Virus record (IMG/VR): IMGVR_UViG_3300046804_001103
Location: 1-20,972 of that record
From: a virus
Strand: one strand, 5' to 3'
Length of the DNA stretch: 20,972 nucleotides
In this document: piece by piece, positions 3,717 through 10,917 of the stretch
How positions within the stretch are numbered: the stretch's first letter is position 1
Layout: each line of letters opens with the position of its first letter
Notes under the pieces: model-generated
Told to the model about the DNA's origin: nothing
Databases searched by the model: none
What the model saw: the letters and a program-made list of their open reading frames with translations, nothing else
Made by a program: the position numbers and the translations under genes

Positions 3717-3938
3717 ATGAGAGACGTAAAGATCAAAGGGAATGCTGACCTAGCAGAACTGCTAGAAGCAGCACGCGAATACAGAGGGATGTCAAAGCGG
3801 CAGCTTGCTGCAGAGGCTGACTTATCTTCCGCGACATACAGTGTGTCGATTAAGAATGAGTCAATCGGCACTGTGACAAACCTGTTCAAGTATCTGGATG
3901 CGTTGGGACTGCAAATGAAGATTGGACCAAAAGCATGA
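3717..3938 (+). CDS. XRE/Cro-type helix-turn-helix regulator
   Basis: The 73-residue protein has an HTH of the Cro/CI type: AELLEAAREYRGMSKRQLAA forms helices 1-2 and A-E-A-D-L-S-S-A-T-Y-S the turn and recognition helix, followed by a helix (VTNLFKYLDALGLQMKI) typical of XRE proteins of about 70 residues. It has no extra domain, so it is a single DNA-binding module, probably dimeric. It starts at ATG 3717 behind GGAGGCTGACCA and overlaps the resolvase gene as ATGA. Position just before the replication genes suggests a transcriptional regulator of the early-to-replication switch; target sites are unknown, though the 9-mer cluster at 7705-7911 is one candidate. Confidence 0.8.
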   Translation: MRDVKIKGNADLAELLEAAREYRGMSKRQLAAEADLSSATYSVSIKNESIGTVTNLFKYLDALGLQMKIGPKA

Positions 3939-5948: not shown

Positions 5949-6257
5949 ATGCGCGAACATAACAATTATACAGGAAGCCGTAGTCTTCCGAAAGAAGCTG
6001 ATCCATACGCGGCACTGCACGATTACCTTGGCTCCGTGATGCTCTATGCAGGCATTGCGCAGGACTACACCCAGAGCCAAGACATTGCAGGACTATCCCA
6101 TGCCGTCCGTAGCCTGCTTGCCTATGCAAAGGCTGCTAAAGGCGAACTGGCGGCAATCATTGAGCAGGCGATAGAGGACGCAGGCAGGCGTGCTGATGAG
6201 GCTGTGGAAGCCGTGTCAAAACCTGTCACCCAGACAGATGAATGGTGGAACGAATGA
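5949..6257 (+). CDS. Hypothetical helical protein (102 aa)
   Basis: I do not recognise this 102-residue protein. It starts at ATG 5949 (CCAGAGGCTGACTT upstream). After a polar N-terminus it is predominantly helical (residues about 20-90: DYLGSVMLYAGIAQDYTQSQ, then LSHAVRSLLAYAKAAKGELA and EQAIEDAGRRADEAVEAV), with an acidic C-terminus ending DEWWNE. It sits between the ssDNA-binding protein and the helicase, whose ATG overlaps its stop as ATGA, so a replication-accessory or loader role is conceivable but is only inferred from position. Confidence 0.65.
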   Translation: MREHNNYTGSRSLPKEADPYAALHDYLGSVMLYAGIAQDYTQSQDIAGLSHAVRSLLAYAKAAKGELAAIIEQAIEDAGRRADEAVEAVSKPVTQTDEWWNE

Positions 6258-7693
6258 ACACGCTGGATGACCTGTTCAACGATGGACCGGATGACGGTTT
6301 AGCGGCTGATGACCTGACCAAGAAGGTGCAGGTGCTGACCGCCAAGAAGGGTGCAGACAAAGTATGGTCAACCGAGGAAGACGGTTCGACTAAAGACCTA
6401 GAAACAGGTGCACCGTGGGAAGACGGGCTGATCCGTGATGCCAAGGGATACACGATCCTGAACCACTATAATGTGTGCCACGTTCTGCGTGACCATCCTG
6501 AATGGCGCAATGTCATCGCGTTCAACGAGTTCAACGGACGCAAGATGGTGATGCAGCCGATACCCGGCAGCCGTGAGCCGCGCAAATACTTCAAGCCAAG
6601 GGAACTGCAGGATAAGGACATTCTGGTGGCAACCGCATGGCTGAACCGTCATGCGCTGCTGCGGGTGAACAAGGGGATGGTCGCAGATGCCATTGATGAG
6701 GTGGTCCATGAGGCAGCCATCAACCCGGTCAAAGACTACCTGCTGACCTGCGCAGCCGAGTGGGACGGAAAGCACCGGATCGATACATGGCTGGAGACAT
6801 ATCTAAGCAGTCAACCAGAGACAGACGCACAGAAGCAATACACACGCGAAGTTGGGTTGCGGTGGCTCATCAGTGCCGTAGCAAGGGTATTCCAGCCCGG
6901 TTGCAAGGCTGACGGCACACTGATCCTTGAAGGCGTCCAAGGCGCAGGCAAAAGCACTGCTGCCAAGATACTCGCAGGACAGGACTTCTTTGGCGACAAC
7001 CTGCCTCCGATGACCAGCAAGGAAGCATCTGCTTACGTCCGTGGCCGATGGATTATCGAAATGGCCGAGTTGGCAAACGTCACCAAGGCTGAAGTGGAAG
7101 TGGTCAAAGCATTCATCAGCCGGACTGAGGAGCGATTCCGTCCACCATACGGACGCAATGAGGTTTGCTATCCAAGGCAGTGCGTCTTCATCGGAAGCAC
7201 CAACCGCACAGACTATCTGCGCGATGACACAGGCAACCGCAGGTTCTGGCCCGTGGCAGTTGGAAAGGTGCGGCTGAAGGAACTGGAAGCAGACCGCAAT
7301 CAGATATGGGGCGAAGCCGTTAAGCGGTACGAGGCAGGGGAGCAGTGGTGGCTGACTGCTGCCGTCGAACGCATCGCGCAGGTGGAGCAGGCTGACAGGC
7401 TGATCGAAGACCCGTGGACCAGTGACGTTCTGGACAAGATTGCAGGCAAGTCAGAGGTGTCCGTGACGCAGGTGCTGGCTGATATGTCAGTCGATACATC
7501 GCGCCGTGATCGCATGATGTCGAACCGCATCGTCAGTATCCTGATGCAGAATGGTTGGGTGCGACATGGGCGCATGACGCATGATCCATACAAGGGGCAG
7601 AACAGGTTTGTCAGGGTGGACCAGTTGGTCCTGAAGCAGCCTGAGAAGGTGGAGCAGGTGATGCCTGCACAGAGCCTTGATGACCTGTTTTAG
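6254..7693 (+). CDS. VapE-type P-loop replication helicase/ATPase
   Basis: ATG 6254 overlaps the preceding stop; an in-frame ATG at 6242 lacks a good site. The 479-residue product has the virulence-associated E (VapE) core: Walker A GVQGAGKST (residues 227-235), a Walker B-like WIIEMAEL at 266-273, the FIGSTN sensor at 312-317, and the arginine-rich RDDTGNRRFWPV segment. In phages such proteins act as replicative superfamily-3-like helicases, often fused to a primase domain; here the N-terminal ~150 residues show no prim-pol motif. LDDLF occurs at both ends: residues 4-8 and the last five residues. No DNA polymerase is encoded in the window, so host polymerase use is likely. Confidence 0.88.
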   Translation: MNTLDDLFNDGPDDGLAADDLTKKVQVLTAKKGADKVWSTEEDGSTKDLETGAPWEDGLIRDAKGYTILNHYNVCHVLRDHPEWRNVIAFNEFNGRKMVMQPIPGSREPRKYFKPRELQDKDILVATAWLNRHALLRVNKGMVADAIDEVVHEAAINPVKDYLLTCAAEWDGKHRIDTWLETYLSSQPETDAQKQYTREVGLRWLISAVARVFQPGCKADGTLILEGVQGAGKSTAAKILAGQDFFGDNLPPMTSKEASAYVRGRWIIEMAELANVTKAEVEVVKAFISRTEERFRPPYGRNEVCYPRQCVFIGSTNRTDYLRDDTGNRRFWPVAVGKVRLKELEADRNQIWGEAVKRYEAGEQWWLTAAVERIAQVEQADRLIEDPWTSDVLDKIAGKSEVSVTQVLADMSVDTSRRDRMMSNRIVSILMQNGWVRHGRMTHDPYKGQNRFVRVDQLVLKQPEKVEQVMPAQSLDDLF

Positions 7694-7948
7694 GGTGAAG
7701 ATCGGGTGAACATAAGTGGTGAACATCCCGTTTTTCTGGAACATATTTAGGAGGGTGAATAAGGTGAACATAGTGAATATAATAGCTAATATAATAATAA
7801 ACACTGTAAGTGACTGATAGTACTACGCTATCGGCTGCTATGTGTTACAGCTAGACCATAGCTATAGCCTATATGTAATGGCTAGAAGTGTTTGCGGGAT
7901 TTATGTTCACCATCTTCACTGAGTGTTTCAAGTAAATCTGAGGGTAAA
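7694..7948. other. AT-rich non-coding gap: candidate origin/operator region
   Basis: No credible gene fills this 255-bp gap between the helicase gene and the next ORF, the largest gap in the replication module. It holds four exact GGTGAACAT 9-mers and related copies (see the repeat entry), an AT-only stretch around 7776-7800, and overlapping GCTA/TAGC palindromes around 7849-7867 (AGCTA-GACCA-TAGCT). Iterons plus an AT-rich tract next to replication genes is the usual composition of a phage origin; multiple operators for a repressor is the alternative. Confidence 0.5.
7705..7911. repeat. GGTGAACAT 9-mer repeat cluster (iteron-like)
   Basis: Exact GGTGAACAT occurs at 7705-7713, 7718-7726 and 7763-7771, and inverted (ATGTTCACC) at 7903-7911. 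Degenerate copies flank the third one in strict 9-bp tandem: GGTGAATAA at 7754-7762 and AGTGAATAT at 7772-7780. A given 9-mer is expected about 0.16 times in a window this size on both strands, so four in 207 bp is not random. Binding partners could be the DnaA-like protein, the HTH protein or the VapE helicase. Confidence 0.7.
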
Positions 7949-8533
7949 ATGATGACGGAAAAGCAGAGCAATCGGGGTCGAACGCAGCGTGCTGATGCGG
8001 TGGTAAATCCAGTCAAAACTGCGTCTGAAGCAGCGTGGCGTGCTGCACTGCAATACGCAGACGAGGCGGCATTGAGGATCGAAGGACAGTGGAGCATTGG
8101 CAGATTGGAGAAGCTGGTTGCACCCGAACTTGCTGCCAAGTTCGCAATGGCGCAGTGGCAACTCGATGAAGCTATCCAAGCAGGTGATGCACAGCTTGCA
8201 GCGCAGAAGTCGGCTTCCGTGGCTAGAGGGTGGCACGCGCTGGACAAGGCTGCACGGGAGGCAGGTCATACACCAGAAGACATTGGGCAGGTGTGGTTCC
8301 ATCGCAGCGATGACGGCAAAAAGGCTTATGCATTCGCTGTCGATATTCACGCGGCTGACAGGCTGCGGAAGAAGTATCCAGATCACACAGTTTACAGTTT
8401 TGCCGAGGTGGCACGGATCATCGAAGCTTCACAGGCTGGATTGTTCACTGCTGCCGTGAAGAAGGCGTTTCCCGGGGCTACAGTGGCTGCACAGCGCAGC
8501 CGTGAGGAGCCTGTGGACGAGATACCGTTTTAG
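7949..8533 (+). CDS. Unknown protein with canonical SSB-like C-terminal tail
   Basis: The start is ATG 7949 (or ATG 7952 directly after it), behind CTGAGGGTAAA. I do not recognise this 194-residue protein. The N-terminus is basic and polar (KQSNRGRTQR), the centre is Ala-rich helical (residues about 25-90, with WRAALQYADEAALRIEGQW and KFAMAQWQLDEAI), then comes a compact part with VWFHRSDDGKKAYAFAVDIH, and it ends EEPVDEIPF. The last residues are nearly identical to the DDIPF tip of bacterial SSB, which recruits replication and repair proteins. No OB-fold motif is evident, so it is not clearly an SSB. It follows the candidate origin and precedes the terminator at 8649. Confidence 0.7.
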   Translation: MMTEKQSNRGRTQRADAVVNPVKTASEAAWRAALQYADEAALRIEGQWSIGRLEKLVAPELAAKFAMAQWQLDEAIQAGDAQLAAQKSASVARGWHALDKAAREAGHTPEDIGQVWFHRSDDGKKAYAFAVDIHAADRLRKKYPDHTVYSFAEVARIIEASQAGLFTAAVKKAFPGATVAAQRSREEPVDEIPF

Positions 8534-10737: not shown

Positions 10738-10812
10738 GCGGGTGTAGCTCAGTGGTAGAGTTTCTGTCTTCCAAGCAGAATGTCGTGGGTTCGATCCCCA
10801 TCGCCCGCTCCA
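10738..10812 (+). tRNA. tRNA-Gly (anticodon TCC)
   Basis: The sequence folds as a full cloverleaf: acceptor GCGGGTG with CGCCCGC (one T-G wobble), D-arm GCTC/GAGT, anticodon stem TCTGT/GCAGA around loop CTTCCAA with anticodon TCC at 10770-10772, and T-arm around TTCGATC. The discriminator is T and CCA is encoded (10810-10812). It starts 4 nt after the large-terminase stop and probably is excised from the late transcript by host RNases. It would help decode GGA (and GGG) codons. Confidence 0.93.
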
Positions 10813-10841
10813 ACTATCTTGGAATACCGGATGATTGGTTA

Positions 10842-10917
10842 GCTCCTGTAGCTCAGTTGGTAGAGCAACGCTTTTGTAAAGCGAAGGTCGCGGGTTCAAA
10901 TCCTGCCGGGAGCACCA
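10842..10917 (+). tRNA. tRNA-Thr (anticodon TGT)
   Basis: Cloverleaf: acceptor GCTCCTG with CGGGAGC, D-arm GCTCAGTTGGTAGAGC, anticodon arm CGCT-TTTGTAA-AGCG with anticodon TGT at 10875-10877, and T-arm GCGGGTTCAAATCCTGC. Discriminator A plus encoded CCA (10915-10917). It decodes ACA and probably other ACN codons. It lies 29 nt behind tRNA-Gly. Phages carry tRNAs to match their codon use or to replace host tRNAs cleaved during defence. Confidence 0.93.

Follow-up and report, generated by a model that had tools for sequence, protein, structure and literature searches.

The gap between two genes at 7694-7948 of the window, by which is meant the whole analysed stretch of 20,972 bases of a viral record, is very probably a replication origin of the SaPI/PICI type that is read by the winged helix of VapE, the helicase encoded directly upstream. 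For this uncultured phage, the probable origin is hereby located to base resolution, and an origin plan that has been described as peculiar to phage satellites appears to be widespread among VapE-encoding phages and prophages. The kind of origin is known, its carrier here being a tailed phage and not a satellite. To find the origins of other phages, a simple rule would be to look 3' of vapE.

In the proposed system, a helicase-initiator gene would be directly followed by its own origin, on the plan of the SaPI/PICI satellites. Binding, melting, loading and the start of replication, which we infer to take place at the array, could be ordered as follows: The C-terminal winged helix of VapE would bind the 9-bp iterons, and VapE assemblies would form on the six left copies and on the inverted right pair, facing each other with the AT-rich tract between them. 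The AT-rich core would melt, ATP-driven VapE rings would load there, and replication would start, together with host polymerase and the SSB that the phage encodes nearby.

The repeat array downstream of the VapE gene

Eight copies of the word RGTGAAnAN, called by a position matrix derived from the window and the relative L003, lie between the VapE gene and the next start codon (Table 1). The six forward copies form a left group and the two inverted copies a right group, and the groups face each other across AT-rich DNA. The array begins with the first base past the VapE stop codon, and 28 bp separate its end from the start of the gene for a 194-aa protein. Four exact 9-mers had been reported in the first-pass annotation, together with two degenerate copies in 9-bp phase (GGTGAATAA and AGTGAATAT); all six are present at the coordinates given there, and exact GGTGAACAT has zero further matches in the whole record. 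The cluster is thus real, but it had been undercounted, the outermost copies on either side (GGTGAAGAT, forward, and AGTGAAGAT, inverted) having been overlooked. With the latter copy, the right arm likewise becomes a 9-bp-phased pair, in addition to the phased triple on the left. The relaxed word [AG]GTGAAnA occurs at 8 sites within 241 bp versus 11 across the remaining 20.75 kb, and four copies of any 8-mer or 9-mer within 215 bp were obtained in none of 200 dinucleotide-preserving shuffles of the window.

Table 1. Positions of the iterons and neighbouring features in the window
Feature	Position	Strand	Evidence
VapE-type SF3 helicase, proposed initiator	6242..7693	+	PF05272 E=1e-79, AlphaFold2 model, 7PDS
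Iteron GGTGAAGAT	7694..7702	+	position matrix
Iteron GGTGAACAT	7705..7713	+	exact match, position matrix
Iteron GGTGAACAT	7718..7726	+	exact match, position matrix
Iteron GGTGAATAA, 1st of 9-bp-phased triple	7754..7762	+	position matrix
Iteron GGTGAACAT, 2nd of 9-bp-phased triple	7763..7771	+	exact match, position matrix
AT-rich tract, proposed melting site; overlaps last left iteron	7770..7810		AT content across window
Iteron AGTGAATAT, 3rd of 9-bp-phased triple	7772..7780	+	position matrix
Core element TAAGTGACTGATA	7807..7819	+	once in array region of window and 8 close relatives
Inverted iteron GGTGAACAT	7903..7911	-	exact match, position matrix
Inverted iteron AGTGAAGAT, 9-bp-phased with 7903 copy	7912..7920	-	position matrix
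194-aa protein, no assigned family, SSB-like tip VDEIPF	7949..8533	+	ORF, family searches, relatives

At scales of 30, 40, 60 and 100 bp, the AT content of the window peaks where the AT-rich tract lies, at the beginning of the DNA between the two groups, and the AT-only stretch that had been noticed beside the repeats (7787-7801) is the longest A/T-only run of the window. The GCTA palindromes that had also been pointed out are real, as two TAGCTA (7783, 7859), without obvious informative value. The element TAASTNNYTGATA is shared by the window and all eight close relatives, in each case within the array region; its significance is not independent because the motif was derived from the same alignments. 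A DNA hairpin in the core is nothing unusual (z -1.0). GC skew climbs steadily from 1 to ~16.5 kb and passes 7.7 kb without an inflection; it is uninformative at the array, since the window is transcribed in a single direction.

The protein encoded upstream of the array matches PF05272 with 267.5 bits (curated cut-off, 25) and carries a Walker A motif, GVQGAGKST, at residues ~231-239, within which GxQGxGKS is invariant across the family. In the AlphaFold2 model, a winged helix is predicted at its C-terminus (residues ~391-460, encoded at ~7412-7621). Among solved structures, the nearest is PriRep1 with dsDNA (7PDS, ‘similar to D. nodosus vapE’; profile 1.8e-111, fold 2e-28), which belongs to the same helicase family and matches over nearly the full length, although the fold alignment shows just 22% identity. 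The PF05272 match and the VDEIPF tip of the 194-aa protein bear out the flanks originally assigned to the cluster, a replicative helicase and an SSB-tailed protein.

Arrays at other VapE loci

Among the close relatives, L003 has a helicase core that is 91% identical to that of the window and an array of eight copies of a word near AGTGAATAG. The order and orientation of the copies are as in the window, down to an inverted pair in 9-bp phase on the right; the copies are altered in concert, and the DNA core between the groups is still alike. In L001 and L002, the helicase cores are 96-97% identical to that of the window, yet just a few degenerate copies are found, forward on the left and inverted on the right, and a small gene is inserted past VapE (6454-6714 in L001). 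Five relatives at ~62% identity have differing words around a conserved AT-rich core: GGTAGAYAG in L093, ATGCAGAYAG in L094, CGGGAGACAG in L095, GGGAAGAYAG in L097, and GGTCGACAG with GGTAGAYAG variants, in few copies, in L098. Outside its own array, each relative's word has 0-1 matches per locus. In L094, L097 and L098, the array is parted from VapE by an inserted gene but remains beside the next gene. The gap between VapE and the array is an insertion hotspot, occupied by small genes or other sequence in several close relatives, and only in close relatives does the gene for the 194-aa protein adjoin the array. Conservation of the 9-mer had been proposed as a check of the cluster, and the exact GGTGAACAT cluster is indeed absent from the close relatives; this absence is misleading as a refutation, because homologous arrays with a changed word occupy the same place.

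The arrangement recurs far beyond these phages. Every 7-mer cluster of a locus was scored blind to its position. Among the bacterial loci, 38 of 47 had their top cluster near the VapE stop, as had 7 of 15 phage records and 56 of 76 viral contigs (near-duplicates included), as compared with 3.9, 1.4 and 9.1 expected from length only; ‘near’ denotes a centre at -50 to +750 bp of the stop, a range set after some arrays had been seen ~500 bp downstream. Thinning of the loci to <80% core identity left 35, of which 23 had four or more copies in an array; no array was detected in the other 12, Bacteroides phages among them. Loci such as L042, L062 and L074-L076 likewise have no detected array. The words vary with the lineage: GTTGGGACA, GGTTGGACA and GTGGGACA in Acetobacteraceae, AAGGATACA in Clostridium, TGTAAACA in Lachnospiraceae, and ACTGCAACA, GGGTGACAAAG and TGATGCAACA in a Paenibacillus, a Pasteurella and a Staphylococcus phage, respectively. 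A tandem pair spaced by 8-9 bp on the same strand is present in 22 of 24 arrays, against a mean of 6.9 under random placement, and in 21 of 23 arrays of a second set, several of which are mirror-symmetric around a central gap. In L103, L104 and L107, strong GTTGGGA arrays are situated ~2 kb past the VapE stop and do not adjoin VapE; possibly, the origin has moved in these loci.

Iterons and the winged helix

Iteron similarity is correlated with the identity of the winged helix when core identity is allowed for (partial r 0.49, p=0.0005, n=24, in a set that contained the duplicate pair L055/L064; this p value and the following one are from permutation tests in which phylogeny is not fully corrected for). 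The corresponding partial r is 0.46 in Acetobacteraceae, 0.57 in a Clostridia subset (n=13) and 0.22 (p=0.0075) in the viral set. In the first three of these sets, iteron similarity shows no correlation with the helicase core once the winged helix is allowed for. In a scan of 45-residue sliding segments, for which the duplicate pair was dropped, the peak lies inside residues 400-464 in all three sets scanned, that of the viral set being weak (0.28) and nearly equalled by a second peak at residues 100-144.

Sister phages offer a closer view of this relationship. In five loci with helicase cores that are 92-95% identical, the 3' half of the iteron, GAYAG, is kept and the 5' halves differ (GGTA, ATGCA, CGGGA, GGGAA); the predicted recognition helix is near-identical and the wing of the winged helix variable. 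It is conceivable, if rather doubtful, that VapE phages quickly diversify their origin specificity through changes to a single half of the iteron, with the wing reading the variable half. Each phage would then have a private origin, perhaps as a guard against cross-replication or interference by co-infecting relatives. Near-identical helicases with different iterons form a natural series on which the DNA-recognition code of this initiator family can be tested directly.

Alternative readings and known origins

The choice originally offered was between an origin and a multi-operator, and it is the origin that the anatomy of the gap, the relatives and the covariation favour. As operators, the repeats would be bound by a regulator of the phage, such as the HTH protein encoded at 3717-3938, that controls the gene at 7949. 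The right pair is indeed placed ~30-45 bp ahead of that gene's start codon, and in close relatives the arrays stay beside the 7949-type gene even where another gene separates them from VapE; an initiator might regulate this gene as well. A scan of 7500-8200 for promoters and terminators, however, revealed no sigma-70-like site that the repeats could overlap, and no terminator either; in distant lineages, the arrays are found 3' of VapE and are followed by genes that are unrelated, and the iterons track the winged helix of VapE. Regulation as the function of the array is therefore improbable.

It is quite improbable, too, that variant DnaA boxes make up the array, to be read by host DnaA or by the DnaA domain-IV-like protein encoded at 524-1141, to which the first-pass annotation had linked the repeats. 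This protein has a DnaA_C match with E=0.0011, which is under Pfam's cut-off, and is kept in L001 and L003, and the variant iteron at 7754 has a complement, TTATTCACC, that differs from a DnaA box by a single mismatch. Near-matches to TTATNCACA, however, are rarer in the window than expected (18 observed versus 39), with one of them within the array, and the words at the equivalent place in relatives and other lineages (GGTAGACAG, GTTGGGACA, TGTAAACA) do not resemble DnaA boxes, so that the link is not sustained. That the cluster arose by chance or consists of neutral repeats devoid of function is hardly credible. Arrays can degenerate, as L001 and L002 show, but the shuffles never reproduced the cluster, VapE loci of different phyla have arrays at the corresponding place, and this reading is contradicted by homologous arrays in which the layout is conserved while the word has changed in concert.

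The origin read by VapE, to return to the favoured reading, has parallels among known systems. In the Streptococcus thermophilus phage Sfi21, an origin was reportedly located in the 1990s in a noncoding region of the replication module, and phage origins of such a kind may therefore not be wholly new. The open-access literature searched contains no report that joins VapE with iterons or an origin. Like SaPI and PICI origins, the putative origin of the window is positioned immediately 3' of the helicase-initiator gene, and its six forward and two inverted iterons flank the most AT-rich stretch. Differences are the iteron word, the lack of an identified primase gene beside vapE, and the element itself, which is predicted to be no satellite but a tailed phage that has a terminase and structural genes of its own. 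PICI origins have the same layout, and a pri-rep-ori plasmid test has been done for one PICI (PMC6092414). SaPI Rep, according to a passage in PMC7581432 that cites Ubeda et al., reads the origin downstream of its gene by means of its C-terminal domain. In Cch2 of SCCmec, likewise a helicase with repeats downstream of its own gene, the C-terminal domain binds these direct repeats, a putative origin (PMC7581432); unlike the VapE of the window, Cch2 belongs to a different helicase branch (SaPI5 Rep/D5-like), and its repeats are three short AAGTG. The possibility that the element is itself a PICI, i.e. a satellite that uses the capsid genes of a helper phage, is ruled out because it has its own large terminase; its origin is nonetheless predicted to work like a PICI origin.

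The genes around the array complete the picture of the element. Upstream are genes for an Enc34-type SSB, an exonuclease VIII-like protein and a RuvC-like resolvase; downstream are those for a small-terminase-like protein and then the large terminase, followed by long genes that are, as judged from their sequence, structural genes of a tailed phage. Three proteins of the replication module have acidic C-terminal tips with a final aromatic residue: the SSB (EDDMF, 5867), VapE (DDLF, 7693) and the 194-aa protein (VDEIPF, 8533). These tips may compete for or recruit host proteins that bind SSB tips. The DnaA domain-IV-like protein is kept in contigs of L001 and L003 (L082, L083), at 95% and 77% identity, respectively, and one TGA falls within the match of the L003 copy. 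Ahead of the terminase, L001 (8380-9702) and L003 (8091-9347) encode a ParB-domain/DNA methyltransferase-like fusion of ~420-440 aa, a gene that the window does not have at the corresponding place. Directly past the large terminase gene, at 10738-10917, the window carries genes for tRNA-Gly (tcc) and tRNA-Thr (tgt).
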